Source: Sphingobacterium sp. UBA2700
GTDB taxonomy: Bacteria; Bacteroidota; Bacteroidia; Sphingobacteriales; Sphingobacteriaceae
Direction: 5' to 3'
Assembly (NCBI GenBank): GCA_002354335.1
Contig: DELI01000035.1
Span: forward strand, 1 to 64,000
Length of the DNA stretch: 64,000 bases
The notes beneath the pieces were generated by a model. It had not been told where the DNA came from, did not search any database, and saw only the letters and a program-made list of their open reading frames with translations. The number at the start of each line of letters is the position of its first letter. Position 1 is the first letter of the stretch. Positions 4,988 to 58,406 of this stretch are shown piece after piece. A program made the translations under genes and the position numbers.

Positions 4988-6109
4988 TTAAATATTGTTC
5001 AACATCACAGGCATCACTAACATCAAGACATCAACACCGTCTTCTTTAATTGCTGGCAACAATAGGCCCGCACGATTAGGTGTGCTCATCTCCAACACGA
5101 CTTCTTCGCAGTTTAAGTTGTTCAACATCTCTACTAAGAATTTAGCATTGAAACCGATCTCCATGTCTTCCCCTTCAAACTGACAGCTCAAGCGCTCGTG
5201 TGCTTCGTTGGAGAAGTCTAAATCCTCTGCGGAAATATGTAGTTCAGATCCTGAAATCTTTAAACGCACTTGATGTGTCGTTTTATTAGCGAAGATAACA
5301 ACACGACGTAGCGTGTTTAAGAATAGAGAGCGATCAACTGTTAGCTTATTCGGATTTAAGCGAGGTATTACCGCTTCGTAATCCGGATAGCGCTCGTCGA
5401 TTAGACGACAGATAAGACTGATATTTCCAAATTGGAAGAATGCATTGGTATTATTGTATTCAACAGAAACATTGACATCATCCGAAGGCAAAGAAGATTT
5501 CAACAAAGAAAGTGCTTTCTTAGGTAGGATAAGTGATGTTGGTTTTTCCGCACCGATATCCGTACGACGATAGCGAACTAATTTGTGCGCATCGGTTGCT
5601 ACAAAGGTGATCGATTGTTCTGCCAATTGAACTAAAACACCAGACATTGCTGGGCGAAGTTCATCATTGCTCACTGCAAAGATTGTTTTGTTGATTGCCT
5701 CCAGTAGAACAGGCGCCGCCAAGTTTACTGTAGAGATATTATCAACAACCGGTATTTTAGGGAAATCATCGGCATTTTCACCGCTTAATTTATACTTACC
5801 ATCACCTGCACTGATCTCGATTGCTAACGTGCTCATATCAACAGAAAATGCTACTGGTTGATCTGGCAATGTTTTCAATGTTTCGATTAAGATCTTTGAT
5901 GGCATCGCCACGCGACCTTCTTCTTTCGCCTCGATCTGCAAGCTGGTAACCATACTGGTTTGCAAGTCGGTAGCTGAAATGGTCAACAAGTTATCTTTGA
6001 TTTCAAACAAGAAGTTCTCTAAAATTGGAAGCACTGTGCTAGAGCTTGATGCGCCGCTAATAGATTGTAATTGTTTTAATAAAATAGAGGTGGATACAAT
6101 AAATCTCAT
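4988..6109 (-). CDS. dnaN: DNA polymerase III sliding clamp (beta subunit)
   Basis: It forms the ring-shaped clamp that tethers the replicative polymerase to DNA. At 373 residues it has the family length for three repeated clamp domains. Recognisable blocks include M-R-F-I-V at the N-terminus, the domain II/III region with I-C-R-L-I-D-E-R-Y-P-D-Y, and the C-terminal M-L-V-M-P-V-M. ATG at 6109 begins at the canonical MRF. It is divergent from holB, which encodes part of the clamp loader, so clamp and loader genes share the 128-bp region 6110-6237. dnaA lies 5 kb away, consistent with an origin-proximal region. Confidence 0.97.
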   Translation of the reverse strand: MRFIVSTSILLKQLQSISGASSSSTVLPILENFLFEIKDNLLTISATDLQTSMVTSLQIEAKEEGRVAMPSKILIETLKTLPDQPVAFSVDMSTLAIEISAGDGKYKLSGENADDFPKIPVVDNISTVNLAAPVLLEAINKTIFAVSNDELRPAMSGVLVQLAEQSITFVATDAHKLVRYRRTDIGAEKPTSLILPKKALSLLKSSLPSDDVNVSVEYNNTNAFFQFGNISLICRLIDERYPDYEAVIPRLNPNKLTVDRSLFLNTLRRVVIFANKTTHQVRLKISGSELHISAEDLDFSNEAHERLSCQFEGEDMEIGFNAKFLVEMLNNLNCEEVVLEMSTPNRAGLLLPAIKEDGVDVLMLVMPVMLNNI

Positions 6110-11219: not shown

Positions 11220-12647
11220 TTAAGAAGCTTTTAACTTCTTTTGAATATCTTGCACGTATGTTTTAAATTTCTTATCCGTCTCGATCAAGTCCTCTACAGT
11301 TTGACATGCGTAGATAACCGTTGAGTGATCTCGTCCTCCAAAGAAACTACCGATAGATTTAAGTGATGACTTTGTGTGGTTCTTCGCCAAGTACATCGAA
11401 ATCTGTCTCGCCTGAACGATTTCACGTTTCCGAACTTTCGATTTTACCATCTCTACAGGTACTTCGAAATATTCACAAACTAGTTTTTGAATGTATTCCA
11501 TTGAAATCTCTTTGTGGGTATTCTTCACAAAGTTTTTCAACATAGATTTTGCAAGGTTCAAATCAATCTCGCGCTTGTTTAATGTTGATTGGGCTAGTAA
11601 TGATACCATAGCACCCTCTAATTCGCGAACTGAATTATCAATTTGATTTGCAACATACTCTACCACATTTTCTGGTAGTTCGATACCATCAGAGTACATC
11701 TTCTTCTTTAAGATAGCCATACGGGTCTCCAAATCCGGAACCTGGATATCCGCTGATAAACCCCACTTAAAGCGGCTCAACAAGCGTTCCTCCAATCCTG
11801 AAAGATCCTTCGGCGCCTTGTCAGAAGTAAGAATAATCTGCTTTCCTGTCTGATGCAGGTGGTTGAAGATATGGAAGAAGATATCCTGCGTCTTCTCCTT
11901 GCCGGCAAAGTTATGCACGTCGTCCATAATAATAACGTCCATAGCCTGATAGAAATTCACGAAGTCATTGATTGTGTTGTTCTTTAAGGAGTCAACAAAT
12001 TGCTGACAGAACTTCTCACATGACACGTAAATAACAAGTTTGTCCGGAAGATTACGCTTGATCTCGTTTCCGATAGCTTGCGCAAGGTGGGTCTTTCCTA
12101 AACCTACATCGCCATAAACCATCAAGGGATTGAATGATGTACCTCCTGGTTTGTTTGCCACTGCATAACCCGCCGAACGCGCCAGACGATTACACTCCCC
12201 TTCAATGAAGTTATCGAAAGTATAGTTCTGGTTCAATTGCGGATCAACTTGCAATTTCTTCAAGCCAGGAATCACGAATGGATTCTTGATGTTCTTATTA
12301 AGCGCTACAGGAACTGGAATTGACTGTCTCTTGCCTTCTGCACCATTACCATTTGAAGGAATGTTTGTTGTATAGGGAGTGTTAGCCGAAGACTTCTCTA
12401 CTACGATATTGTACTCCAAACGACCTTGCTCTCCTAAAAACTTTTTAACCGTTTTTCTGAGAATACCTACATAATGTTCTTCCAACCACTCGTAGAAAAA
12501 CAAACTAGGTACTTGAATAGTTAAAACGTTTCCTTCAAGACGTACAGCTTTAACGGGTTCGAACCATGTTTTAAAACTTTGTGTCGGTATGTTATCTTTT
12601 ATGACCGCAAGACAACTTTCCCAAACACTTGTACACGTTTTTTCCAT
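11220..12647 (-). CDS. dnaA: Chromosomal replication initiator DnaA
   Basis: DnaA is the ATP-dependent protein that opens the origin. From ATG 12647 it has 475 residues with the usual domains. Domain I is at about 1-80. A short linker follows. The AAA+ domain carries Walker A G-D-V-G-L-G-K-T-H (about 179-187) and Walker B D-V-I-I-M-D-D-V-H. The C-terminal DNA-binding domain has G-G-R-D-H-S-T-V-I-Y-A (about 437-447), the signature that reads DnaA boxes. A TTG 13 codons upstream is not needed. The gene stands alone. dnaN is 5 kb to the left and the best DnaA-box cluster is 12 kb to the right. Confidence 0.97.
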   Translation of the reverse strand: MEKTCTSVWESCLAVIKDNIPTQSFKTWFEPVKAVRLEGNVLTIQVPSLFFYEWLEEHYVGILRKTVKKFLGEQGRLEYNIVVEKSSANTPYTTNIPSNGNGAEGKRQSIPVPVALNKNIKNPFVIPGLKKLQVDPQLNQNYTFDNFIEGECNRLARSAGYAVANKPGGTSFNPLMVYGDVGLGKTHLAQAIGNEIKRNLPDKLVIYVSCEKFCQQFVDSLKNNTINDFVNFYQAMDVIIMDDVHNFAGKEKTQDIFFHIFNHLHQTGKQIILTSDKAPKDLSGLEERLLSRFKWGLSADIQVPDLETRMAILKKKMYSDGIELPENVVEYVANQIDNSVRELEGAMVSLLAQSTLNKREIDLNLAKSMLKNFVKNTHKEISMEYIQKLVCEYFEVPVEMVKSKVRKREIVQARQISMYLAKNHTKSSLKSIGSFFGGRDHSTVIYACQTVEDLIETDKKFKTYVQDIQKKLKAS

Positions 12648-12999
12648 TCTATATTTGTTAATAACTTGATAACCAATAATTGACAAAAATTCTGTTTATA
12701 ACTTTTGCCTACTACGAATATGACCATTTTTTTCTACCAAAAAAACTAATTTGGTAAAAAAATGTTAAATCACTTGTTTACAGCAATTTAATTGTAATTT
12801 TTATGATTTAACAGGTTTAGAAATGAACACAAATTTAGTTTTCAACACCTTGAAAATACCTCGATCAAAATTCAATTTTTTAAAGGAAAAATTAAGTTTA
12901 AGTTTTTGAGTGTGGAAAACTTTGAATAAAAAAAGAAGCCGCGTGGCTTCTCTTCTTTATTCTTTTAAAGTTTCTGTAAAACCTTATAAATGATAGCAA
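12648..12999. other. AT-rich dnaA upstream region
   Basis: This 352-bp AT-rich gap lies between dxs and dnaA, both read leftward. It holds the dxs terminator (12928-12950) and presumably the dnaA promoter. Only one DnaA-box-like word was found (TGTGGAAAA, 12911-12919), so it is a weaker origin candidate than 24.2-24.5 kb. No gene is seen. Confidence 0.6.
12928..12950 (-). terminator. dxs terminator
   Basis: On the minus strand GAAGCC-ACGC-GGCTTC is followed by seven T residues, about 50 bases after the dxs stop codon. Confidence 0.85.
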
Positions 13000-14928
13000 T
13001 TATCCTACCAAACTTTCCGTTTTTATACCCTTGGTTAATTTTCTGACCGTCGCTTCGATACCTGTAGCATCATAACCACAGATTTGCCACAATTCAGCCT
13101 GTTCACCATGCTCCACAATCGTATCTGGGATACCTAATCGGGTCACGTCGGCATCGTAGTGATGGTCTACCATGAATTCCAATACCGCAGAACCAATACC
13201 TCCAGGAAGACATCCGTCTTCAACAGTGATCACTTTATTGAACTTCTTGAAAACTTCGTGCAACATGTCCTCATCCAAAGGCTTCGCAAAACGCAAATCG
13301 TAATGTGCCGGATGTATCGCATCCTCAGAAAGCTTCTGAATAGCCTTGCTAGCCTCATTACCGATATGTCCGAAGGTCAAGATAGCAATATCCTCCCCAT
13401 CACAGATCTTTCTGCCTTTGCCGATAGGAATCTCCTTAAAAGGTAATTTCCAATCTGGCATAACCCCATTACCACGTGGATAACGGATCACGAAAGGACC
13501 CTTATCCGGTAATTGCGATGTGTACATCAGATTGCGAAGTTCTTCCTCATTCATGGGTGATGAAACCACCAAATTCGGAACGCAACGCATAAAAGAGATA
13601 TCATAAGCACCGTGATGCGTAGGTCCATCTGCACCCACTAAACCGGCACGGTCCAAACAGAATACCACGTTTAAGTTCTGTAAGGCTACATCATGAATCA
13701 CCTGATCATAGGCGCGCTGCATAAAAGAGGAATAGATATTACAAAAGGGAACTAAGCCCTGTGCAGCCAAGCCCGCACTAAATGTAACCGCGTGCTGTTC
13801 CGCGATACCCACATCGAAAGCTCTGTTAGGCATCGCTTTCATCATAATGTTCATCGAAGATCCACTCGGCATCGCCGGTGTAATCCCCATGATTTTATCG
13901 TTTGCCTCTGCCAGCTCCACTAAGGTATGTCCGAAAACATCCTGGTATTTCGGTGGCTGTGGTTTATCTGATATGCTCTTTTTTATCTCGCCGGTAATCT
14001 TATCAAAAAGACCCGGAGCATGCCATTTGGTTTGATCTTTCTCCGCCAAAGCATAGCCTTTTCCCTTTACCGTTACTACATGTAACAACTTCGGCCCATT
14101 GATATGCTTCAAGTCTTCAATGGTCTTCACCAATTTATTGACGTCATGTCCGTCTACTGGTCCGAAATAACGGAAATTTAAAGATTCGAAAAGGTTAGAA
14201 TTCTTTAATAAAGTTCCCTTGATGCTTTGTTCTAGTTTTTTTGCCCATCCATATGCATTTGGACCCTTTTTAGAGATCTTCGATAATACCGACACCAAAT
14301 CATCACGAAAACGGTTATAGCTCTTAGAAGTCGTTATACTGGTCAGATACTCCTTCATCGCCCCAACATTCGGATCGATGGACATACAGTTGTCATTTAA
14401 GATGACCAACAGATTCGATTTCTCTATACCCGCATGATTTAATGCTTCAAAAGCCATCCCGCCCGTTAATGCGCCATCACCTATGATCGCCACATGCTGA
14501 CGATCGGTTTCGCCTTTATATTCCGAAGCAACCGCCATGCCTAATGCGGCAGAGATTGATGTAGACGAGTGGCCCACACCAAAGGCATCATATTCGCTCT
14601 CCGAACGCTTCGGGAATCCCGATAAACCTCCGATAAGACGATTGGTATGAAAAGTATCACGACGACCAGTCAGGATCTTATGACCGTAGGCTTGGTGCCC
14701 AACATCGAATAAAATCTGATCATAAGGAGTATTTAAGGCGTAATGTAAGGCAACTGTCAATTCAACAACACCTAAACTTGCCGCAAAATGTCCACCATTG
14801 ACCGATACAATATCGATGATGAATTGCCTAAGTTCTTTACAAACCTGCTCTAGGTCAGCTTCTTTTAAGTCTCTTAGATCTGCTGGATATTGTATTTTCT
14901 TTAGTAGCTCTCCTGCTTCTACCTGCAT
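13000..14928 (-). CDS. dxs: 1-deoxy-D-xylulose-5-phosphate synthase
   Basis: This thiamine-diphosphate enzyme makes DXP from pyruvate and glyceraldehyde-3-phosphate, the first step of the MEP isoprenoid pathway. From ATG 14928 it has 642 residues, close to the family norm. Visible motifs are G-H-Q-A-Y-G-H-K near residue 78, the TPP-binding G-D-G-A-L-T-G-G-M...N (about 150-178) and D-R-A-G-L-V-G-A-D-G-P-T-H (about 423-435). Upstream in-frame codons would add 37 residues unlike the family, so the ATG before Q-V-E-A-G is preferred. It is divergent from scpA. Confidence 0.96.
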   Translation of the reverse strand: MQVEAGELLKKIQYPADLRDLKEADLEQVCKELRQFIIDIVSVNGGHFAASLGVVELTVALHYALNTPYDQILFDVGHQAYGHKILTGRRDTFHTNRLIGGLSGFPKRSESEYDAFGVGHSSTSISAALGMAVASEYKGETDRQHVAIIGDGALTGGMAFEALNHAGIEKSNLLVILNDNCMSIDPNVGAMKEYLTSITTSKSYNRFRDDLVSVLSKISKKGPNAYGWAKKLEQSIKGTLLKNSNLFESLNFRYFGPVDGHDVNKLVKTIEDLKHINGPKLLHVVTVKGKGYALAEKDQTKWHAPGLFDKITGEIKKSISDKPQPPKYQDVFGHTLVELAEANDKIMGITPAMPSGSSMNIMMKAMPNRAFDVGIAEQHAVTFSAGLAAQGLVPFCNIYSSFMQRAYDQVIHDVALQNLNVVFCLDRAGLVGADGPTHHGAYDISFMRCVPNLVVSSPMNEEELRNLMYTSQLPDKGPFVIRYPRGNGVMPDWKLPFKEIPIGKGRKICDGEDIAILTFGHIGNEASKAIQKLSEDAIHPAHYDLRFAKPLDEDMLHEVFKKFNKVITVEDGCLPGGIGSAVLEFMVDHHYDADVTRLGIPDTIVEHGEQAELWQICGYDATGIEATVRKLTKGIKTESLVG

Positions 14929-18695: not shown

Positions 18696-20303
18696 ATGCA
18701 CACTTTAATTAATGAACTTCAGAAAAAGAGGGAGGCTTTACTATTAGGTGGAGGCTTAGATAAAATCCAAAAACAACGTGAAAAAGGAAAGATGTCAGCG
18801 TGGGAGCGCGTTATTTACCTATTGGATGAAAACAGGCCTTATACCGAAATAGGGATCTTTGCTGGAGAAGGACAATACAAGGAACATGGTGGATGCCCTA
18901 ATGGGGGAGTTGTGGTCGTAATGGGCTATGTAAAGGATAGATTATGTATTGTTGTATCAAACGATGCTACCGTAAAAGCGGGTGCTTGGTTCCCGATTAC
19001 ATGTAAAAAGAACCTGAGGGCACAGGAGATTGCCATGGAGAATAATCTCCCTATTATTTACTTGGTAGACTCTGCCGGTGTGTATTTACCGATGCAAGAC
19101 GAGATCTTCCCGGATAAGGAACATTTCGGCCGTATTTTTCGTAACAATGCAAAGATATCTGCAATGGGAATTCCACAGATCGCTGCTATTATGGGTTCCT
19201 GCGTAGCAGGTGGTGCCTATTTACCGATCATGTCTGATTATGCACTTATCGTTGAAGGTACTGGTTCGGTCTTCTTAGCCGGTTCCTACTTGGTAAAATC
19301 GTCCATCGGCGAAAATATAGATAACGAAACCTTAGGCGGTGCAGCAACGCACTCCGAAATATCAGGCGTAACAGACAACAAATATCCGAACGATGAATCT
19401 TGCTTAGATGCTATCAAGAACATTGTGGATAAGTTTGGCGCCAGCCCTAAAGCCTTATTCTCTAGAGTTGAGGCTATTGCTCCGGAATACACTATAGATC
19501 AATTATATAATTACTTTCCTGAAGATCGTTTAAAGCCTTACAACATGTTGGAGGTTTTAAAAAGCATTGTGGATAAGGGAAGTTTAGAGGAATATAAAAA
19601 GGACTACGCAAAGACGTTAATCTGCGCCTTAGCCCGTATTGATGGTTGGGCTGTCGGTATCGTGGCAAATCAACGCGAAGTAGTAAAAGCTAAAAAACCG
19701 GGCAATTCAACCGAGATGCAGATGGGCGGAGTAATCTACTCGGATTCGGCCGATAAAGCAGCACGCTTTATCATGAACTGCAACCAACAGAAGATTCCAT
19801 TGGTATTCTTCCAGGATATCTCCGGATTTATGGTAGGCTCCAGAGCCGAGCATGGCGGAATCATTAAAGACGGTGCTAAGATGGTCAACGCTATGGCAAA
19901 CTCCGTAGTACCTAAGTTCACCTTTATGGTCGGCAACAGTTATGGAGCCGGAAACTACGCGATGTGCGGAAAAGCCTACGACCCACGTCTGATCTATGCA
20001 TGGCCGACAGCAAAAATAGCCGTAATGAGCGGTGCATCAGCCGGAAAAACCTTATTACAAATACAGGAAGCAACCCTCAAATCTAAAAATGTCACACTTA
20101 GCGAAGAAGAAAAAAATAAGCTACTCAAAGACATCGAAGAAAGATATAATGAACAATTGAGTCCCTATTATGCAGCTTCCCGCTTATGGGTAGACGGTGT
20201 AATCGACCCGGCAGAAACCCGAAAAATAATTTCCATGGGAATAGAAGCCGCAACCCATAATCCAAATATACCCGACTATAAGGTAGGTGTTATTCAGACG
20301 TAG
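18696..20303 (+). CDS. Acyl-CoA carboxylase carboxyltransferase (beta) subunit, probably methylcrotonyl-CoA carboxylase
   Basis: This 535-residue carboxyltransferase transfers CO2 from biotin to an acyl-CoA. The family block G-K-M-S-A-W-E-R (about 29-36), M-G-S-C-V-A-G-G-A-Y-L-P (about 166-177) and the C-terminal-half G-N-S-Y-G-A-G-N-Y-A-M (about 413-423) fit methylcrotonyl- or geranyl-CoA carboxylase better than propionyl-CoA carboxylase. It is divergent from the acyl-CoA dehydrogenase gene across 136 bp. The biotin carboxylase (alpha) subunit needed for activity is not in the window. Directly after the stop codon lies a composite repeat whose first part carries its terminator. Confidence 0.88.
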   Translation: MHTLINELQKKREALLLGGGLDKIQKQREKGKMSAWERVIYLLDENRPYTEIGIFAGEGQYKEHGGCPNGGVVVVMGYVKDRLCIVVSNDATVKAGAWFPITCKKNLRAQEIAMENNLPIIYLVDSAGVYLPMQDEIFPDKEHFGRIFRNNAKISAMGIPQIAAIMGSCVAGGAYLPIMSDYALIVEGTGSVFLAGSYLVKSSIGENIDNETLGGAATHSEISGVTDNKYPNDESCLDAIKNIVDKFGASPKALFSRVEAIAPEYTIDQLYNYFPEDRLKPYNMLEVLKSIVDKGSLEEYKKDYAKTLICALARIDGWAVGIVANQREVVKAKKPGNSTEMQMGGVIYSDSADKAARFIMNCNQQKIPLVFFQDISGFMVGSRAEHGGIIKDGAKMVNAMANSVVPKFTFMVGNSYGAGNYAMCGKAYDPRLIYAWPTAKIAVMSGASAGKTLLQIQEATLKSKNVTLSEEEKNKLLKDIEERYNEQLSPYYAASRLWVDGVIDPAETRKIISMGIEAATHNPNIPDYKVGVIQT

Positions 20304-20341
20304 ATCAGATATCAGATTTTAGATATAAGACATTAGAGTAG

Positions 20342-20365
20342 GGAGCCGATTAGGCTCCTTTTTTT
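20342..20365 (+). terminator. Terminator of the carboxyltransferase gene, inside repeat locus 2
   Basis: GGAGCC-GATTA-GGCTCC is followed by seven T residues, 38 bases after the stop codon. The same hairpin recurs in inverse orientation at 20731-20750. Confidence 0.85.
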
Positions 20366-20531
20366 GTGGTTTAAAGGGGGGTTGTCCGCATAGGTCTTTA
20401 TACTAACTACTAAATACTAGATACTCACTACTTTTTCTTAGTTCAAGACAAGTACCAACTACTAATAAATACTAACTTAAGACTTAGTCAGCTTAGTTCC
20501 CTTTTAAACCCAATGATAACCCAATACAAAC

Positions 20532-20568
20532 CCCAATCAAAGCCGCTCCAGAAGGGCTTTGCATTGGG
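20532..20568. repeat. Module D hairpin, copy 2
   Basis: CCCAAT (20532-20537) pairs with ATTGGG (20563-20568), and AAAGCC (20539-20544) with GGCTTT (20555-20560). The loop region GCTCCAGAAG is identical to copy 1 at 410-419. Confidence 0.7.
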
Positions 20569-20730
20569 TCATATAGGGCAGTGAAAAATGTTAGACTAGA
20601 AGTAAGTTATAAGACGATAGACACTAGACCCGATCCTGCCAATCCTAAAATCCTTCCTTTCCTGGTTCAGAAAAAGTAGTTAGTACTTAGTACTTAGTAT
20701 AAAGACCTATGCGGACAACTACCCCTCGTA

Positions 20731-20750
20731 AAAAAAGCCTAATCGGCTCC
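20731..20750 (-). terminator. Terminator facing leftward, inside repeat locus 2
   Basis: On the minus strand GGAGCC-GATTA-GGCTTT (two G-U pairs) runs into a T-tract about 75 bases after the LuxR-type gene. It mirrors the terminator at 20342-20365. Confidence 0.7.
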
Positions 20751-20824
20751 ATACTCTAATATCTAAAAGCATGTATCTACTCCCACCCAAGGTCTAAATA
20801 CTAACTACTAAATACTAACTACTA

Positions 20825-21562
20825 TCAAATCAACTTCAACGCTTTCACCTTTTTCAATAAATCGATGGTGTTATCACATTCTGTTTTGTTGAGTAAGTTT
20901 TTGCGGTGGGTTCTAACGGTGTGGATACTGATGAATAATTTCTCGGCTATTTGTTCTGACTTGTAAGCTTGATCTAATAATTGCAGAATCTCTATCTCTC
21001 GCTTCGTCAGTTGAAAGGACGGTGGTGGGGCGAGTAGATTCTCCTCTCGTACATTATAAATCGATCCTGAGCCTTTAAGATCGATAAAATGAAGCTCCGG
21101 TTCATTGCTCATCTTTATCGCGGTGATGTCAATATGTTGAACCAAGGTTTTTAATACACAGACTTCGTTGATCTCATAGGCAACAGTTTGTTGCAAAATG
21201 CGTATATATTGTCCGGATTTCTTCCTTACACGAAAGTCATGAACAATCTTAAAGTGCGTTTGCTTCTCAATGGGGATACTTAAGCAAAAAGTCAGCGCTT
21301 GTTTTTCGTGTAAAATAAAGTAGCGTTGATCGTCGGGGTGGATAATATCTATCAATCCTTCCATGCTAAAGGTATCAGTATCATAGCCCAGTATTCGGGT
21401 AAAGTCCTCCGAAAACGACACTATCTTGATGTTAACACAGTCGAAAATGAAATAATAGCTATCTAATTTGAGGGCAATATTATCGTTATATAAACGATTT
21501 CCTTGCTCACTCAATTCTGCTAATAGAGATGCAGCAGATTTAACTAGTTCCTTCCAGCTCAA
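20825..21562 (-). CDS. PAS-domain LuxR-type transcriptional regulator
   Basis: The 245-residue protein has a PAS-like sensor (about residues 28-155: V-S-F-S-E-D-F-T-R-I-L-G-Y, then I-I-H-P-D-D-Q-R-Y) and a C-terminal LuxR helix-turn-helix (about 180-240: L-T-K-R-E-I-E-I-L-Q-L-L, then I-S-I-H-T-V-R-T-H-R-K-N-L). There is no receiver domain. The only workable start is a TTG at 21562. An in-frame stop lies two codons upstream and the next Met is inside the PAS domain. TATATTTG at 21582-21589 fits as its promoter. It is flanked on both sides by composite repeats. Signal and targets are unknown. Confidence 0.85.
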   Translation of the reverse strand: MSWKELVKSAASLLAELSEQGNRLYNDNIALKLDSYYFIFDCVNIKIVSFSEDFTRILGYDTDTFSMEGLIDIIHPDDQRYFILHEKQALTFCLSIPIEKQTHFKIVHDFRVRKKSGQYIRILQQTVAYEINEVCVLKTLVQHIDITAIKMSNEPELHFIDLKGSGSIYNVREENLLAPPPSFQLTKREIEILQLLDQAYKSEQIAEKLFISIHTVRTHRKNLLNKTECDNTIDLLKKVKALKLI

Positions 21563-21589: not shown

Positions 21590-21967
21590 GTAAAAGTATT
21601 TAGACGTTAGATGTTAGATATAAGACAATTAGAGCAGGGCGCCGTTTAGGCTCCTTTGTTTGCGTAAATATCAAAGGTTATCTTTTTTTTGTTGCAGAAA
21701 AGATGATTTGTCTGAACCAAGAAAGGAAGGATGAAAGGATGACCATGATCCTGCTCATCTTTTTATCCTTTTTTTCCTGATTCAGACTAGATATATAGAT
21801 TTTAGACATCAGATATTAGACCGATCCTGACAATCCTAAAATCTATCCTTTCCTGGTTCAGACGAGATATTAGTTCTTAGACATCAGATATTAGACCGTA
21901 TCCTGACAATCCTTAAATCCTTCCTTTCCTGGTTCAAGACAAACGTTCAAAACAGCCTACAAATAGC

Positions 21968-21993
21968 AAAAAGAAAGGCGCCTTATCGGCGCC
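21968..21993 (-). terminator. thiL terminator, inside repeat locus 3
   Basis: On the minus strand GGCGCC-GATAA-GGCGCC is followed by TTTCTTTTT, 37 bases after the thiL stop codon. The sequence is homologous to the terminators of locus 2. Confidence 0.85.
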
Positions 21994-22029
21994 CTGCTCT
22001 AATATCTAAAGTCTAATATCTAAAATCTA

Positions 22030-23067
22030 CTACGAAAAAGCATTCCACCCCTGCGCTTTCAGCTCATGTACATTTCCTGATTTAGAGATCAGTTGTCGGC
22101 CGGCGGCTTCTTCGGTCATATAGCCGATGATAGAGATATCTAATTGATTTTTAACCTTATCGTATTCGCTTTGAGGTACTGTGAAGAGCAGTTCGTAGTC
22201 TTCACCGCCACTAAGTGCACATACCGTTGGGTCTAATCCGAACTCACGAGCTGTCTCGTAGGTCATGGGATCGATAGGGATTTTTTCTTCATATAACTTA
22301 CAGCCTAGTTTCGAGGCATTACAGATATGGAATAAATCGGATGCTAGACCGTCTGATACGTCGATCATGGCATTAGGTTTCACGTTTAAATGGCGGAATA
22401 GTTCCACAACATCACCACGTGCTTCCGGTTTTAACTGACGCTCTACGATATAGTCTTTCCCTTCCAGATCGGGCTGAATATTAGGGTTTTCTAAGAAAAT
22501 CTGTTTCTCACGTTCCAATAATTGTAGACCTACATACGCACCACCTAAGTCACCCGATACACAGATAAGATCGCCTTCTTTTGCACCAGAGCGTAAAGCA
22601 ATTTGATCTTCATCTGCATAACCAATACTGGTTACCGAGATCACTAAGCCTTGAGCGGATGTGGAAGTGTCGCCACCAATAAGGTCGACACTGTATTTCT
22701 CACAGGCAAACAATGCTCCTTGGTACAATTCTTCGATGGCTTCCAATGGAAATTTAGATGATAAACCTATGGAAATAGTTACTTGTGAGGCTATACCGTT
22801 CATGGCATAGATATCACTAAGATTCACCTGTACAGCCTTGTATCCTAAGTGTTTAAGCGGTACATAGCGAAGGTCGAAGTGTACATTTTCCAAGAGCAAA
22901 TCCGTGGATATCAGGGTCTTTTTACCTTTAAAATCTAACACTGCAGCATCGTCGCCAATGCCTTTTTCTGAGGATTCATTCTTTAACTCAATCTGGCTCG
23001 TCAGGTGTTTGATCAATCCGAACTCGCCAAGTTCATTAAGGTTTGTCTTATCTTTATTATCGAACAT
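22030..23067 (-). CDS. thiL: Thiamine-monophosphate kinase
   Basis: ThiL phosphorylates thiamine monophosphate to the active cofactor thiamine diphosphate, which dxs and pyruvate dehydrogenase in this window need. The 345-residue protein has the AIRS-fold signatures G-I-G-D-D-A-A-V-L (about 36-44), S-T-D-L-L-L-E-N-V-H-F-D (about 54-65), I-G-G-D-T-S (about 131-136) and I-D-V-S-D-G-L-A-S-D-L (about 227-237). It follows nadA by eight bases on the same strand and is probably cotranscribed. No TPP riboswitch is seen upstream, consistent with a downstream operon position. Confidence 0.95.
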   Translation of the reverse strand: MFDNKDKTNLNELGEFGLIKHLTSQIELKNESSEKGIGDDAAVLDFKGKKTLISTDLLLENVHFDLRYVPLKHLGYKAVQVNLSDIYAMNGIASQVTISIGLSSKFPLEAIEELYQGALFACEKYSVDLIGGDTSTSAQGLVISVTSIGYADEDQIALRSGAKEGDLICVSGDLGGAYVGLQLLEREKQIFLENPNIQPDLEGKDYIVERQLKPEARGDVVELFRHLNVKPNAMIDVSDGLASDLFHICNASKLGCKLYEEKIPIDPMTYETAREFGLDPTVCALSGGEDYELLFTVPQSEYDKVKNQLDISIIGYMTEEAAGRQLISKSGNVHELKAQGWNAFS

Positions 23068-23075
23068 ATTGTATT

Positions 23076-24074
23076 TTATAGACCTAGTTTTGCTGATATC
23101 TCTAACATACGCTCGATCGGTTTTTGCGCACGAGCGATAATGTCTTCTGAAAGAACAATCTCCGGTTGCTCGTAGTACAGACAGTTATACAGCTTCTCTA
23201 GGGTATTTAATTTCATGTGAGGACAGTCATTACATGCACATAGGTTGTTTGGAGGTGCAGGGATGAATGTTTTTGAAGGGCTAGCCTTCTGCATTTGGTG
23301 CAAAATACCAGACTCCGTCGCGACGATGTAAGTGTCCGTAGGATCTTCGATCGTATATTTCAACATTCCGGATGTGGAACCGATATAATCAGCTTGCGCT
23401 AAGATATGATCTTCACATTCTGGATGTGCGATAAACTTCGCATTAGGGTATTCAAGTCTTAGTGCATTAATTTTTTCTTGCGAGAAAATCTCATGTACCA
23501 TACAAGCGCCATTCCATAGCACTAAATCTCTGCCTGTTTTCTTCTTAACATAGTCGCCTAGGTTACGATCCGGGCCAAAGATAATCTTTTGATCTGCCGG
23601 AAGACTTTCAACAATCTGTACCGCATTGCTTGAGGTACAAACGATATCCGAAAGAGCTTTTAACTCCGCGGTACAATTCACATAAGTAATGACCAGGTGA
23701 TCTGGATATTTTTCTTTAAACTTAGCAAATAAGTGTGGAGGACAACTATCTGATAATGAGCATCCTGCTTTTAGATCAGGGAGCAACACCTTTTTCGATG
23801 GTGAAAGGATCTTGGCTGTTTCGGCCATGAAATGCACACCAGCAAAAACGATCATATCTGCATCGGTCTTCGCTGCCTGTTGGGATAAGCCTAAGCTATC
23901 GCCGATATAATCAGCAAGGTCTTGGATTTCAGAATCTTGGTAGTAATGCGCTAGGATAACGGCATTCTTTTCCTTCTTCAGTCTATTGATCTCAGCGACT
24001 AAATCAATCGTCGGGTCAATATCCACATCAATAAATCCTTTTGCCGAAAGGTCTTGTTCAAAAGTAGTGTTCAT
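23076..24074 (-). CDS. nadA: Quinolinate synthase
   Basis: It condenses iminoaspartate (from NadB) with dihydroxyacetone phosphate to make quinolinate for NAD. From ATG 24074 it has 332 residues. A 4Fe-4S cluster is expected from the cysteines in [16 protein letters not shown] and C-N-D-C-P-H-M. The motif [10 protein letters not shown] (about 41-50) is typical. An in-frame extension upstream of 22 residues is unlike the family and was not used. Its partner nadB is divergent across a 479-bp AT-rich region that also looks like the replication origin. Confidence 0.95.
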
Positions 24075-24143
24075 TTGCTTTTCTAAGTAAACTGATTTCT
24101 TTGACTCATCAATAGCACAAAAGTAAAGAAAGAAATTCAAACG

Positions 24144-24540
24144 AAATCCACATTCCCTTTTTTCAATAAATTATAATGTTTTTTATAAAAGAGAATATTG
24201 TTGTTTATTAGTGTGTGGATAATGGGGATAAGTTTGTGATTTTAGATTTTATTTCTTCGTTATTCTATGTTTTTCCACAATTTATCCACAGTTTTCAACG
24301 CTTTAAGTGCTGATTTTCAATTCCTATTTTTTTGTGCTTTTATTTTTTCCATATTTTATTGTTCATTTTATTTCTGTTGGGATTTGTTAATATTCGTAAC
24401 ACATTCTCTTAATATTTTGGTAATATTTGTGTGTAAAACCTGTGGATTGTGGATTAATAAATAGTTTTCCTTTTTAATTCACTTCTTATTTACATGTTTT
24501 GCACATTATTTGTTAATTTGTTGATTCCTAATTAGAATAA
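24144..24540. other. Candidate chromosomal replication origin (oriC) with DnaA-box cluster
   Basis: This AT-rich gap lies between divergent nadA and nadB. Words matching TTWTNCACA in either orientation are TGTGGATAA (24214-24222, perfect), TTTTCCACA (24271-24279), TTATCCACA (24282-24290, perfect), TGTGTAAAA (24430-24438) and TTTTGCACA (24497-24505). Near matches are AAATCCACA (24144-24152), TGTGGATTG (24441-24449) and TGTGGATTA (24448-24456). Long T-rich stretches at 24310-24430 could serve for unwinding. dnaA, dnaN and mnmG are all within 20 kb and two parS-like sites are 6 kb away. The assignment is inferred from these words alone. Confidence 0.7.
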
Positions 24541-24553
24541 TAGTTGATTATAG

Positions 24554-26146
24554 ATGCTGGATAGAAAAGTAGATTTTTTGGTAGTCGGCTCTGGGATTGC
24601 AGGATTAAGTTTTGCATTGAAAGCTGCTGACCTTGGCAAGGTGTTGATTGTGACGAAAGCCAATGAGGATGAGTCGAATACGAAATATGCACAGGGTGGT
24701 GTCGCTGTTGTGACGGACGAGACGGACAGTTTTGAGAAGCATATTCAAGACACCTTAATAGCTGGAGATGGTTTATGCGATCCACAAGTTGTGGAAAACG
24801 TGGTGAAAGAGGGCCCGGACCGTATTGCAGAGCTGATAGCCTATGGGACTTCTTTTGACAAGGAAGACTCCGGGGAGTATGATCTAGCGAAAGAAGGTGG
24901 GCATTCTATGCACAGAATCCTTCATTATAAGGACATTACGGGGTATGAAATTGAACGTGCTTTATTAGCTAAGATACATGCCCATCCGAATATAGAGATA
25001 TTAACACATTATTTTGCTGTTGATTTAATAACACAGCATCATCTGGGTGAACATGTGGATAAACGTTCGGATAATATCACTTGTTATGGTATTTACGCGT
25101 TAAATACCCGCACAAAGAATGTGGAAAAAGTGTTAGCAAAGGTAACATTAATGGCCACAGGTGGTGCAGGGCACGTTTATTCATCCACAACGAATCCCAC
25201 AATAGCAACAGGTGATGGTATTGCGATGGTGTTTCGCGCGAAGGGTAAAGTTCGTAATATGGAGTTTATTCAATTCCATCCGACGGCCTTGTATAATCCT
25301 CGTGAATATCCTGCTTTTTTAATATCAGAGGCTGTGCGAGGTTTCGGAGGCGTATTACGTCGTGTGAACGGTGAATCCTTTATGGAGGAGTATGATGAAC
25401 GCGCTTCTTTAGCGCCGAGGGATATTGTTGCTAGGGCGATCGATGCCGAGATGAAGAAATCTGGATTGGATTACGTGTACCTCGATATTACACATCGTTC
25501 CAAGGCGGATATACTTTCACATTTTCCTAACATCTATGAAAAGTGTTTGTCTGTAGGTTTGGACATGACGAAAGACTATATTCCGGTTTCACCTGCTGCG
25601 CATTATTTATGTGGGGGGATCATGGTCGATGAATTTGGTGCTACTTCTATCAAGAATTTATATGCTTGTGGCGAATGTTCTTCTACAGGTTTACATGGTG
25701 CTAATCGTTTGGCTTCCAATTCGTTACTTGAAGCGGCAGTTTATGCTCATCGTATTTTCCAGAATGCGAGTGAAATTTTTCCTGGAATAGATTTTCAAGA
25801 GGGCATTCCTTCCTGGGATGAGTCGAATACGGCCTTATCGAATGAAGATATCTTAGTGACACATAATCTACGTGAAACACAGAAGTTGATGAGTGATTAT
25901 GTGGGTATCGTGCGTTCTGATTTTCGTTTAGAACGAGCCATGCGCCGTTTAGGCTTGCTACACGAGGAAACCGAAGCTTTTTATAAGAACACTAGATTAT
26001 CGGTTAAGCTTTGTGAGCTTCGTAATGTGATTCAGGTTGCTTTTTTAGTGGTAAAATCAGCTACCCTTCGTAAGGAGAGTCGCGGTTTACATTATACGAC
26101 CGACTATCCTCAGCATGCTGATGAATTGAAAGACACTGTTTTATAG
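24554..26146 (+). CDS. nadB: L-aspartate oxidase
   Basis: This FAD enzyme oxidises aspartate to iminoaspartate, the substrate for NadA. The 530-residue protein has the FAD-binding V-V-G-S-G-I-A-G-L (about 9-17) and K-Y-A-Q-G-G-V-A-V-V (about 44-53). H-S-M-H-R-I-L-H-Y (about 118-126) and the catalytic region A-P-R-D-I-V-A-R-A-I-D (about 292-302) follow, all as in the succinate dehydrogenase/aspartate oxidase family. R-L-A-S-N-S-L-L-E-A (about 387-396) is a further signature. It is divergent from nadA and is followed 15 bases later by a carbonic-anhydrase-like gene, probably in the same transcript. Confidence 0.96.
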   Translation: MLDRKVDFLVVGSGIAGLSFALKAADLGKVLIVTKANEDESNTKYAQGGVAVVTDETDSFEKHIQDTLIAGDGLCDPQVVENVVKEGPDRIAELIAYGTSFDKEDSGEYDLAKEGGHSMHRILHYKDITGYEIERALLAKIHAHPNIEILTHYFAVDLITQHHLGEHVDKRSDNITCYGIYALNTRTKNVEKVLAKVTLMATGGAGHVYSSTTNPTIATGDGIAMVFRAKGKVRNMEFIQFHPTALYNPREYPAFLISEAVRGFGGVLRRVNGESFMEEYDERASLAPRDIVARAIDAEMKKSGLDYVYLDITHRSKADILSHFPNIYEKCLSVGLDMTKDYIPVSPAAHYLCGGIMVDEFGATSIKNLYACGECSSTGLHGANRLASNSLLEAAVYAHRIFQNASEIFPGIDFQEGIPSWDESNTALSNEDILVTHNLRETQKLMSDYVGIVRSDFRLERAMRRLGLLHEETEAFYKNTRLSVKLCELRNVIQVAFLVVKSATLRKESRGLHYTTDYPQHADELKDTVL

Positions 26147-28439: not shown

Positions 28440-30299
28440 TTAACTCATATGTACCATTAACACACTAATATCTGCAGGTGAAACTCCAGAAATGCGTGAC
28501 GCTTGTCCTAATGTTCTTGGTTTCACTTTCAATAGTTTTTGACGCGCTTCAATAGAGAGGGAAGTTAATGAATTATAATCAAAGTCAGGATTGATTTCTT
28601 TGTCTTCCATCTTTTTCATTTTATTCACGATTTCCATTTCTTTCTCGAAGTAGCTTTCGTATTTCACTTTGATTTCAGCTTGCTCGATCGTCTCTTCGTC
28701 AAATTGACTTAAGTAGTTTCGTAGTTCTTCATCAGCTTTCGCAAGGTCTTTGATTTCTATTTGCGGTCTGCTGAGTATATTGAAGAGTCTGGTTTTTTGT
28801 GTCAATAGACTGGAACCTTTTTCTGCTAATACCGGGTTCATGGTTTCTGTTGATACGGAGTTCGATCTGAAGTAGTCAACAATATCGTCTGAGTTTTTAA
28901 CTTTCTCATCTACGATTGCCAACCGTTCATCGGATACTAAACCTAATTGATGTGCGATAGGGGTTAGCCGGATGTCCGCATTATCCTGACGTAAGAGTAG
29001 TCGGTGTTCTGCTCGTGAGGTAAACATACGATAAGGTTCTTCCGTACCTTTTGTTACGAGGTCGTCGATCAGTACGCCTATATAAGATTCAGATCTTTTC
29101 AAGATCAGCTCATGAAGATCGTTTATTCTTTGGTGTGCATTGATACCTGCTACGAATCCTTGGGCTGCGGCTTCTTCGTATCCCGTCGTTCCGTTGATCT
29201 GTCCTGCAAAAAATAGATGTTTCACGTGCAACGTTTCTAAAGTAAGGTCGAGTTGCATAGGAGGGAAGAAGTCATATTCGATGGCATAGCCCGGTCTGTA
29301 CATCTTGGCATTTTCAAATCCAGGGATTAATTGTAATGCTTTTAATTGTACGTCCTCAGGTAAAGAGGTGGAGAATCCATTGACATATATTTCTACTGTT
29401 CGGAATCCTTCTGGTTCTACGAAGATCTGATGTCTTTCACGCTCGGCAAATCTGTTGATCTTATCTTCAATGGATGGACAGTATCTCGGACCTAAACCTT
29501 TGATTCGACCAGTGAACATCGGTGATTTTTCAAAGCCAGTTTTTAATACTTCATGCACTTCCGCATTGGTATAGGTAATCCAGCAACAACGTTGTTCGGT
29601 TGGTACATCGACTTTGGTATAAGAGAATCTACCTCTTTTTTCATCGCCCCATTGTTCTTCCATCAAGGAGTAGTTTAAGCTTCTGCCATCAACACGTGGG
29701 GGAGTACCAGTTTTCATTCTTCCGGATTCAAATCCTAAGGATACTAATTGTTCGGTCAATCCGGTTGCTGCTTTTTCACCTGTTCTACCTCCGCCGAATT
29801 TCTTTTCGCCGACATGGATTACACCATTTAAGAATGTACCATTTGTTAATACTACTGCATCCGATTCGATACGAATTCCCATTGATGTAATGACACCTTT
29901 TGCTCTACCGTTCTCGACGATGACTTCCTTTACGGTGTCTTGCCACATGTCTAGATTTGGTAGAGATTCCAATTGCCATCTCCATTCTTCAGCAAAACGC
30001 CTTCTGTCGTTTTGTGTTCTGGGGCTCCACATTGCTGGTCCTTTAGATAGGTTCAGCATACGGAATTGTATAGTAGATTTATCAGCGATTATACCAGTGT
30101 ATCCGCCCATGGCGTCGATCTCTCGAACAATCTGTCCTTTTGCTACTCCGCCGATAGCGGGGTTACAACTCATCTGTGCGATGACGCCCATGTTCATGGT
30201 GATGAGCAATACAGATGATCCTAAGTTTGCAGCTGCCGCTGCGGCCTCACATCCGGCGTGGCCGGCTCCAACTACGATGACGTTATATTTCTTAAACAT
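28440..30299 (-). CDS. mnmG: tRNA uridine-5-carboxymethylaminomethyl modification enzyme MnmG
   Basis: With MnmE it installs the cmnm5 group on the wobble uridine of several tRNAs, using FAD and methylenetetrahydrofolate. The 619-residue protein has [11 protein letters not shown] (about 9-19), the C-N-P-A-I-G-G (about 46-52) and [11 protein letters not shown] (about 153-163) blocks, and the C-terminal helical domain. Length is typical. The gene (also called gidA) often lies near replication origins. Two parS-like sites occupy its upstream region and a third parS-like word is inside the coding sequence (29218-29233). Confidence 0.97.
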
Positions 30300-30311
30300 A
30301 TTTATCTATTC

Positions 30312-30327
30312 TGTTCCACGTGGAACG
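30312..30327. promoter_or_regulatory. parS-like centromere site 1
   Basis: TGTTCCACGTGGAACG contains the perfect 14-bp palindrome GTTCCACGTGGAAC, equal to the core of known chromosomal parS sites (ParB binding). It lies 13 bases upstream of the mnmG start codon and 6 kb from the candidate origin. Confidence 0.75.
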
Positions 30328-30355
30328 AAGTTCTTTTACCCGTTGTTTTTATTAT

Positions 30356-30371
30356 GGTTTCACGTGGAACC
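30356..30371. promoter_or_regulatory. parS-like centromere site 2
   Basis: GGTTTCACGTGGAACC is a parS-type word with a single break in symmetry, 44 bp from site 1 and abutting the stop codon of the ABC-F gene. Confidence 0.7.
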
Positions 30372-55717: not shown

Positions 55718-58153
55718 TTATTTTTCTTCGTTAGCTAGCAAATTTACAAATAATCTATAAGCTCCGGGCACTCCCGCCGGTAATTGTCGGAAAAACGCCA
55801 AAGAAGTATAGACAAACTTGCCTTTCCCATATTTAGCGACCAATAAAGAGCCCTTATGTTGCTTCTCATTCTGATCAGCGAAGGATAATGGCGTGCGATA
55901 TTGCTTATCGATATCCTCGGCGAAGTATAATCCGCGCTCTTGTATCCATCCGTCGAAGTCTTTTTGCGTTATTTTATTCGGATAGTTGAGTACAGGATCT
56001 TTTGGCTCGACAAATGTTGCCTTCGCATCTTCCTCCGTCACTCGAGCTCGGCTGATCTTAAAGGGATAAGGGCCGAACTGGTCGATGCCAGTACGCGAGT
56101 TGACATTATATTGAACTAAGGCTGTCCCGCCTTGCTCCACATAGCTCATCAGCTGTGGAAACCAACGCTGAATGGATCGACTTACATTATAGGCTCTAAC
56201 CCCTAGAATGACAGCATCATAGCCCTGCAAACTCGAAGTAGTAATTTGAGACTCCGATAACTGCTCGACTTGAATACCGATATTGGCTAATGAACTAGGA
56301 ATAAGGTCGCCCGCTCCGGCAATATAAGCGACGCGCTTAATTGGATTATTCAATTCTAAGGCCTTCACTTGTAATTTTACAGGAGGAAACCACGTAATCG
56401 GAGGGACATGCGGGTATAGAAGACGTTTATAATCATGAAGCGGCACCCCATTGGCAAGAAGTTCAATGCTTGAGGAAGCACTGTTCTTCGGGTTGCTGAT
56501 TTCTACGGTCTTTATAATCTCCTGATTCGGCTCGAATGTGATAGTAAAACTATTAGGGTTTAATTGCAGACCATCTGACTGCTTAAAAGTAAGATCAATT
56601 TGTTGCTTTTTTGAGGAGTTGTTCTTCAACGTGATAGTCAAAACCTTTGTTTCTCCTTGTTGGAGCAACATATTGGGATGGTTGATGGAAGCCGTAATAA
56701 CCGGACTAATGCTCATCGGCTCATATACCTCACCCTCTACAGGATCAACGTATTTGTATTTAATCTGACGCTCTACAGGAAATGTAAACCCGTTAATATC
56801 CAGGATAAATGTCGAACTCGGCAAGTTGCTGTTCTCCGGATTACCGTAATCTTTCGCATCTACAGCGAACTTTCCAAGGCTATGTGGCTTTTCCAGCCAA
56901 TAAGGCTGTGTCCACACCGAAAAGGACTGGTTGTCCTCATATTTCTTGACCTCATTCCATGGCAATTCTTGATCAATGGATTTACCATTAATCGACTTTA
57001 CCCGCACTTTAATTCCAGGATTGCGAAGGATAAGTTCGTTGGAAACCGGAATCTCTTCATTGACCACATAGTTGAAGTCGCTAGCAGTGGCTTCGATCCA
57101 TAATCCCGAGCACGCGATAATCAACTCTTCGACATCTTGTAGCTTTTGCGTCTTGTAAACAGAGGGCTTAAGCTTTGAAATCAAGGTATGCAAGTTGATC
57201 AGTTTATCGATTGACGCTGCTGGGGCTTCCGCCTGAAACGTATTTTGAATATCTTTGATAGTCTGTTCAATGGCTGAAGTAGACTCGCCGAGGCGCTTCC
57301 AGCTGGAATCAATACCGTCAAATAAGCTTTCTTTAGCCTCATCGCCTGCAACGGCCTCAAAGTATTCGATGGACTTGCCACGACCTGCAGCAGCACCAAA
57401 ACCCTGACTCTTATGCTGTGAGCGGCTTAAAGCAGCAATTTCCCCATAAGAATATCCCAATAATGGATTATAAGCACCAATATCGACCTTTAGCTGATCT
57501 TCGCGCGTATTGTTCATTCCGCCAAAATTGGCGGTGTTCCACAGCAAGCGTTTTGCTTTCCATGGTTTCAAGTCTTTTAACTGTTCTTGGAATCGCTTTG
57601 GATCGCCTGCAGCCTCGAAAGCTTCTTTGGCAAGGATAGCAGACGCTTGGTGATGACCATGTCCTCCACGTGTGTCGGGAGGGAAGCGATTGATGATAAC
57701 ATCCGGCTGTAGCTTACGGATTAGATAAACCGCTTCTCTTAGCGTTTCTTCCTTTTGCCAAAATGAGAAAGTCTCTTCATGCGTTTTCGAGAAACCGAAA
57801 TCATAGGCAGAACTGAAATATTGCTCTCCTTTATCGATAGCGCGAGCTGCCAATAGCTCCTGCGTCCTGATTAAACCCAACTCAATGCCCTGCTCTGTGC
57901 CTAGTAAGTTCTGTCCGCCATCTCCTCGAGTCAATGATAAATATGCCGTTCTGTAGTTCTTTTCATTGGCTAACCAAGCTATCAAACGTGTGTTTTCATC
58001 GTCCGGATGCGCCGCAAAATATAGTACAGTACCCAAGGTAGAAAGCTTATCTATTTTAGACTTGATCAGCGCCGATGAATAGCTTTGCTGGCTAAAAGAT
58101 AGTGTGATTGAACATAGGTATAGAATGACGAGGAATAGGGTTCTTTGCATCAT
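55718..58153 (-). CDS. Secreted PIG-L family deacetylase, large form
   Basis: The 811-residue protein has a signal peptide (about residues 1-21). The PIG-L/LmbE deacetylase domain (about 40-290) has the zinc motif A-A-H-P-D-D-E (about 47-53) and the H-G-H-H-Q-A (about 164-169) ligands. The C-terminal half is beta-rich, with an Ig-like/NEW3-type region (I-T-L-K-N-N-S-S-K-K near residue 520) and a final ThuA-like fold (A-V-I-L-G-V-R-A-Y-N near residue 650). The domain is expected to hydrolyse N-acetyl groups from a sugar in the periplasm. It is the first gene of the operon with two small membrane proteins and a symporter. Confidence 0.88.
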   Translation of the reverse strand: MMQRTLFLVILYLCSITLSFSQQSYSSALIKSKIDKLSTLGTVLYFAAHPDDENTRLIAWLANEKNYRTAYLSLTRGDGGQNLLGTEQGIELGLIRTQELLAARAIDKGEQYFSSAYDFGFSKTHEETFSFWQKEETLREAVYLIRKLQPDVIINRFPPDTRGGHGHHQASAILAKEAFEAAGDPKRFQEQLKDLKPWKAKRLLWNTANFGGMNNTREDQLKVDIGAYNPLLGYSYGEIAALSRSQHKSQGFGAAAGRGKSIEYFEAVAGDEAKESLFDGIDSSWKRLGESTSAIEQTIKDIQNTFQAEAPAASIDKLINLHTLISKLKPSVYKTQKLQDVEELIIACSGLWIEATASDFNYVVNEEIPVSNELILRNPGIKVRVKSINGKSIDQELPWNEVKKYEDNQSFSVWTQPYWLEKPHSLGKFAVDAKDYGNPENSNLPSSTFILDINGFTFPVERQIKYKYVDPVEGEVYEPMSISPVITASINHPNMLLQQGETKVLTITLKNNSSKKQQIDLTFKQSDGLQLNPNSFTITFEPNQEIIKTVEISNPKNSASSSIELLANGVPLHDYKRLLYPHVPPITWFPPVKLQVKALELNNPIKRVAYIAGAGDLIPSSLANIGIQVEQLSESQITTSSLQGYDAVILGVRAYNVSRSIQRWFPQLMSYVEQGGTALVQYNVNSRTGIDQFGPYPFKISRARVTEEDAKATFVEPKDPVLNYPNKITQKDFDGWIQERGLYFAEDIDKQYRTPLSFADQNEKQHKGSLLVAKYGKGKFVYTSLAFFRQLPAGVPGAYRLFVNLLANEEK

Positions 58154-58354: not shown

Positions 58355-58406
58355 AAAAAAACTTTTCCACAAAAACCAAGTTATACACAAGGTTTCTGTG
58401 GAAAAG
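58355..58406 (-). terminator. Terminator hairpin built from DnaA-box-like words
   Basis: On the minus strand a 16-bp stem (one mismatch) at 58391-58406 and 58362-58377 is followed by seven T residues. Its arms contain TTTTCCACA (58363-58371) and TGTGGAAAA (58397-58405), and the loop side has TTATACACA (58381-58389), all fitting the TTWTNCACA DnaA consensus. It lies 42 bases after the stop of the DUF6952-like gene. Confidence 0.75.

Follow-up and report, generated by a model that had tools for sequence, protein, structure and literature searches.

A predicted chromosomal replication origin between nadA and nadB, away from dnaA, in Sphingobacterium and other Sphingobacteriaceae

We analyzed a 64,000-nucleotide stretch of DNA from Sphingobacterium sp. 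UBA2700 (contig DELI01000035.1; hereafter the window) and found that the gap between the divergent genes nadA and nadB (24141–24553) is very probably the chromosomal replication origin (oriC), a strong prediction that is well supported by computation on sequences. Five kinds of observation bear on it: DnaA boxes in the gap, cumulative GC-skew minima, linkage to parS sites, synteny across the family Sphingobacteriaceae, and a dnaA gene that moves independently. An earlier reading of the window, made from its letters alone (the sequence-only reading), had placed a candidate origin between these two genes and not beside dnaA, and the skew, the parS linkage and the aligned box positions all support that placement. 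The flanking genes, nadA (quinolinate synthase, 23076–24140, minus strand) and nadB (L-aspartate oxidase, 24554–26146, plus strand), were identified by NCBIfam profiles. The gap measures 413 bp from the first listed nadA codon (TTG, 24140) and approximately 480 bp from the ATG at 24073, which is the likely start, the latter value matching the 479 bp given by the sequence-only reading. The source organism is a Sphingobacterium-like member of the family, its NadB being 87% identical to that of Sphingobacterium faecale, and the nearest genome used for comparison was G001, a single contig of 4,373,748 bases with 97% identity to the window across 8.2 kb of the 20–30 kb stretch.

The gap contains five words fitting the DnaA-box pattern TTWTNCACA, where 0.11 would be expected from first-order shuffles of the gap, and the whole window contains 15. 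All five, including two perfect ones, were found at the places that the sequence-only reading had assigned to them. The perfect word TTATCCACA forms box 1 (24214–24222, minus strand), which is proximal to the predicted unwinding element, and box 3 (24282–24290, plus strand). Word scanning and alignment of the gaps also gave box 2 (TTTTCCACA, 24271–24279, plus strand), which forms a direct pair with box 3 at a spacing of 2 bp, and, towards nadB, box 4 (TTTTACACA, 24430–24438, minus strand), with conservation below that of the other four, and box 5 (TTTTGCACA, 24497–24505, plus strand). Near matches include TTATCCCCA at 24223 and TAATCCACA at 24448–24456 (minus strand). When words with at most one mismatch to TTATCCACA were counted per 500 bp of the window, the densest place, with six words from 24019, was at the gap. 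A DnaA-box cluster in an intergenic region, one of the hallmarks of an oriC, is thus present. The sequence-only reading had counted a single box upstream of dnaA; the stretch 12641–13000 does contain one TTWTNCACA word (12911), and a further three words there (12656, 12693, and 12839) have A as their sixth base.

The same cluster was found in relatives. All 18 gaps of the Sphingobacterium group (those of the window, G001, and L124 being almost identical to one another) have at least two TTWTNCACA words, and their total is 67 against approximately 2.7 expected. Counted per 450 bp, the gap ranks first for such words in 773,748 sampled bases of G001 and in the sampled part of G095, and it shares first place in G097. 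If position 6 may also be A, it ranks first in G001, G043, and G095 and shares that rank in G085, G097, and G049. The strict TTATCCACA count was tried as a family-wide marker and rejected, as it is zero across 18 Pedobacter/Mucilaginibacter gaps. Two other groups of box words in the window were noted in passing: three TTWTNCACA words within 43 bp (58363–58405), upstream of a large PIG-L-domain gene (55718–58153), and two perfect TTATCCACA words at 19424 and 19568, inside a carboxyltransferase-like gene (18696–20303), whose 144-bp spacing recurs in G001.

An AT-rich, easily melted element adjoining the boxes, as expected of an oriC, is predicted on the nadA side. By nearest-neighbour energy, the least stable 60-mer of the gap lies at 24152–24211, and only 0.2% of the 60-mers in the window are less stable. 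It overlaps a DnaA-trio-like run, AAT AAA CAA CAA TAT (24195–24209, minus strand), which follows box 1 after the 4-base spacer CACT. In the aligned columns of a 50-row gap alignment, from which the conservation of this run was read, the strongest block is box 1, then about 4 bases, and then AATAAACAAtA (conserved block TAATAAACAAtA). According to PMC8235120, in the trio unwinding element a GC-rich spacer, usually 4 or 5 bp long, separates a box from approximately five triplets whose middle base is strictly conserved, and in Helicobacter pylori the middle base of the triplets alone did not suffice for opening. The middle base is A in all five window triplets, three of the five fit the relaxed trio consensus, and half of the spacer is G+C. 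A conserved 18-base word proved too strict: only 30 of the 121 family genomes contain it, with 31 sites in total, of which 28 lie within the gap or next to nadA and the other 3 do not.

The order of genes around the gap is stable in the family. Both nadA and nadB are present in 119 of the 121 genomes, and the divergent nadA/gap/nadB arrangement was found in 117 of these, with a gap of 372–2966 bp (median 430); in the remaining two (G031 and G113), the genes are on separate contigs. A survey of locus order in the best 80 loci of the search gave 23 Sphingobacteriaceae loci with this order, one (L053) that begins too near nadB to tell, 55 without a nadA match in the available stretch, some of which have only short flanks, and one, from Dyadobacter, with nadA and nadB on the same strand. 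Widened gaps occur in G121, G032, G035, and G056; in G121 and G032, the extra DNA lies between the box array and nadA, and the array is intact on the nadB side. The inserts of L140/L266 (G121) and L143 (G032) are AT-rich and longer than 1 kb. By eye, the nadA side of the gap in L146, at a contig end of G031, seems to enter a transposase-like reading frame, and an insertion may split the gap there.

The position of dnaA is not stable. Adjacency to dnaA, a further mark of many origins, was not found: in the window, approximately 11.5 kb separate dnaA (11220–12686, minus strand, Pfam profile) from the gap, and eight of the 13 one-contig relatives have distances of 0.38–1.47 Mb. Where dnaA and nadB share a contig, distances of 8.6–15.3 kb occur only in the window's genus, the nearest other genus having 32 kb, and in the five other genera with one-contig genomes the likely origin and dnaA are always 0.38 Mb or more apart.

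The cumulative GC-skew minimum of the window is at 24164, inside the gap and close to the position of about 24.3 kb that the sequence-only reading had anticipated. For G001, a contiguous 154 kb has its minimum at 4360874, which precedes the nadA match (4360911) by 38 bp, and the sampled skew is mostly positive up to approximately 1.6 Mb and then mostly negative as far as the gap. Since dnaA is mostly near the gap in the window's genus, the real skew test lies in the relatives. In G043 (dnaA 1.47 Mb off) and G049 (dnaA 0.70 Mb off), the minima of 160-kb stretches are 16 and 29 bp, respectively, inside the start of the nadA match. The location at a skew minimum that is expected of an oriC was thus observed in the window, G001, G043, and G049. 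Whole-genome skew was sampled in six genomes, at a resolution of kilobases at best, and fitted with two replichores. The best origin was the nadA grid point in G001, G043, and G085, and in G049 nadA reached 0.587 against a best value of 0.588. The fits at nadA and dnaA were 0.645 and 0.282 in G043, 0.816 and 0.747 in G085, and 0.587 and 0.260 in G049; in G001 the R2 was 0.495 and 0.484. The skew of the other two genomes, G095 and G097, was too weak to discriminate.

The parS sites gave similar results. The sequence-only reading had mentioned parS-like sites together with dnaN, dnaA, and mnmG around the gap; profiles confirmed the three genes, and five parS-like sites with at most three mismatches were found in the window against 0.36 expected. 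Three of the five are at mnmG (gidA; 28440–30299, minus strand, NCBIfam profile): two palindromes at 30312 and 30356 (30312–30371, plus strand), just upstream of the gene, and one within it (29218–29233). In the Sphingobacteriaceae loci of the 80 that contain mnmG, this gene is approximately 4–6 kb from the nadB start. In the 13 one-contig genomes, the parS word GTTNCACGTGNAAC has 36 sites, 35 of them 2–9 kb from the gap, and its reversed control word has one; the parS–gap distances and the circular dnaA distances of G008 and G092 were calculated by hand. A parS site is near the gap also in all eight of these genomes in which dnaA is 0.38–1.47 Mb from nadA. The word GTTTCACGTGRAAC is present in 75 of the 121 family genomes. 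It has at least 101 sites; of the 101 listed, 97 are 2.6–15.2 kb from the nadB start, and the others are one distant site in G055, two on another contig in G102, and one in G006, which has neither gene. The parS word adjoins mnmG in G006, G102, G026, and G113. G006 is a 1.7-Mb family genome without a nadA or nadB match, yet its parS word stands beside mnmG. Sites for parS in the origin region, as in a typical oriC region, are thus found.

The sequence of the boxes differs between groups of the family. We divided the aligned gaps by hand into three groups; the alignment leaves out L064, the 51 gaps counted leave out L140, L143, and L146 (no nadB in the stretch), and the rows are related, so that cells are not independent. 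At box positions 1, 2, and 5, the ending is CACA in 51 of 54 cells in the 18 Sphingobacterium-group gaps and AACA in 54 of 54 cells in the 18 gaps of the Pedobacter/Mucilaginibacter group (eight Pedobacter, seven Mucilaginibacter, one Daejeonella, one Pseudopedobacter, and one other). Boxes 3 and 4 show no clean shift from CACA to AACA, and 14 further gaps are mixed, including that of Pedobacter helvus (L056), which has two TTATCCACA words. In the Pedobacter/Mucilaginibacter group, TTNNTAACA occurs 46 times against approximately 9 expected. Words with A at position 6 also occur upstream of dnaA in several relatives, as in the window, which suggests that DnaA may read such words.

To this drift no change in the recognition helix corresponds in 12 aligned DnaA proteins (the window and genomes with G numbers, none a named Pedobacter or Mucilaginibacter): the recognition motif RDHSTV is identical in all 12, including those of G043, G049, and G085, whose gaps contain TTNNTAACA (TAACA-type) words. 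A V-to-T/S change was found beside the residue that aligns with R399 of Escherichia coli DnaA. G095 has T at this place, yet its gap contains four TTWTNCACA words, and the position next to the R399-like residue offers no more than a lead on a possible cause of the drift. We put forward tentatively, and as rather unlikely in its entirety, the joint proposal that a family-wide origin between the NAD (nicotinamide adenine dinucleotide) genes rewrote its DnaA boxes in parallel and that recognition was re-tuned outside the recognition helix, either through the V-to-T/S change or through a helper protein.

Several observations weigh against an origin in the gap. In G085 (dnaA 0.38 Mb off), the local skew minimum is approximately 10 kb from nadA, the mean-removed one is near 375 kb, and the raw one is elsewhere; in G049, the best fit position is 80–480 kb from nadA. 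The fit in G095 is a tie between nadA and dnaA (0.637 and 0.638), and that in G097 slightly favours dnaA (R2 0.467 versus 0.421 at nadA), its best position (2.78–3.00 Mb) being closer to nadA (3.09 Mb) than to dnaA. Among 23 short (5–22 kb) family loci, the minimum is inside the gap in only eight. Where genes diverge, a skew minimum arises in part from the coding strands, and the base-level agreement is therefore not to be over-read. The gap has one TTWTNCACA word in G043 and none in G085 and G049, and the 18 Pedobacter/Mucilaginibacter gaps together have 11 (approximately 2.4 expected) and no TTATCCACA. G001 has one GTTNCACGTGNAAC site at a distance of 52 kb from the gap, and one parS word of G055 is far from nadB. 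Moreover, the parS word keeps its place at mnmG both in G006, which lacks nadA and nadB, and in G102, where these two genes are on a different contig; parS therefore goes with mnmG and identifies the region, not specifically the gap.

The origin could instead be at dnaA, as in many bacteria, with the boxes between nadA and nadB being incidental. The four TTWTNMACA words upstream of dnaA and the fit of G097 agree with this, and in the window dnaA is too near the gap for sampled skew to separate the two, as the close values in G001 illustrate. However, the fit is better at nadA in G043, G085, and G049, where dnaA is distant, and parS follows the gap in 8 of 8 one-contig genomes with distant dnaA. 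An origin at dnaA is thus very unlikely.

Another possibility is that replication starts elsewhere nearby, for example upstream of mnmG, 5–6 kb off, and that the boxes in the gap are regulatory or titrate DnaA. The anchoring of parS at mnmG, the kilobase resolution of the sampled skew, and the E. coli-like placement of the predicted Yersinia pestis oriC between gidA (mnmG) and mioC (PMC10225481) would be in line with such a site. It is nevertheless very improbable, as the gap is the largest TTWTNCACA cluster both in the window and in the sampled bases of G001, and the skew minima of G001, G043, and G049 lie where the gap borders nadA, none of them being at mnmG. The boxes sit between divergent genes, and DnaA can regulate genes; the protein might therefore serve there solely to control the transcription of nadA and nadB, or might simply be titrated by the site, without any origin. 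The chromosome-wide skew reversal, the parS linkage, and the unstable DNA by box 1 would then be left unexplained, and we consider this extremely improbable.

If the nadA–nadB gap is the origin, DnaA would occupy boxes 1–5 and extend from box 1 across the 4-base spacer onto the trio-like run, and the least stable stretch (approximately 24152–24211, on the nadA side) would open. Replication would then proceed from the gap in both directions, one fork passing through nadA and the other through nadB, each gene being transcribed away from the gap, and the parS-like sites at mnmG, approximately 5–6 kb off, would allow the copied origin to be segregated by ParB and ParA. Because nadA and nadB are divergent, the origin is predicted to share their promoter region, and replication may be coupled in some way to nad transcription. 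A scan for Bacteroidota-type promoters returned only -7-like words (24229 on the plus strand, 24125 and 24066 on the minus strand) and no full promoter.

Among the other neighbours, dnaN is at 4988–6109 (minus strand, Pfam profile). A dispersed repeat family at 20305–20840 and 21600–22040, around the open reading frame of a LuxR-type regulator, matches many dispersed places in G001; the 20–30 kb stretch as a whole gave 226 matches to that genome.

An oriC away from dnaA is an already known kind. What is new is the placement between nadA and nadB, its fixity across a family whose dnaA shifts position, and the parallel drift in box sequence. The available part of PMC10225481 does not name a nadA–nadB origin, and none was found by title or abstract opening among the papers listed in the literature searches, DoriC and subscription papers being outside their scope. 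In nine of the 13 one-contig genomes, numbering starts within approximately 550 bases of dnaA. For Sphingobacteriaceae, the nadA–nadB gap and not dnaA would be the reference point for oriC plasmids, for analyses by replication strand, and for growth rates estimated from coverage. The parallel drift makes the co-evolution of DnaA and its origin directly testable within one family.

In E. coli, oriC is located between gidA (mnmG) and mioC, away from dnaA. The gap resembles this type in being an intergenic DnaA-box cluster with AT-rich DNA, in the mnmG region and not beside dnaA, and differs from it in being flanked by nadA and nadB, with mnmG several kb away. With the trio element of Bacillus subtilis and H. 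pylori (PMC8235120), it shares the succession of a box, a short spacer, middle-A triplets, and AT-rich DNA, whereas its spacer is only half G+C and two of its five triplets fall outside the relaxed consensus. The nadA–nadB gap also resembles the Ori-Finder-type predicted origins away from dnaA in PMC10225481, which are supported by the same kind of in-silico evidence.
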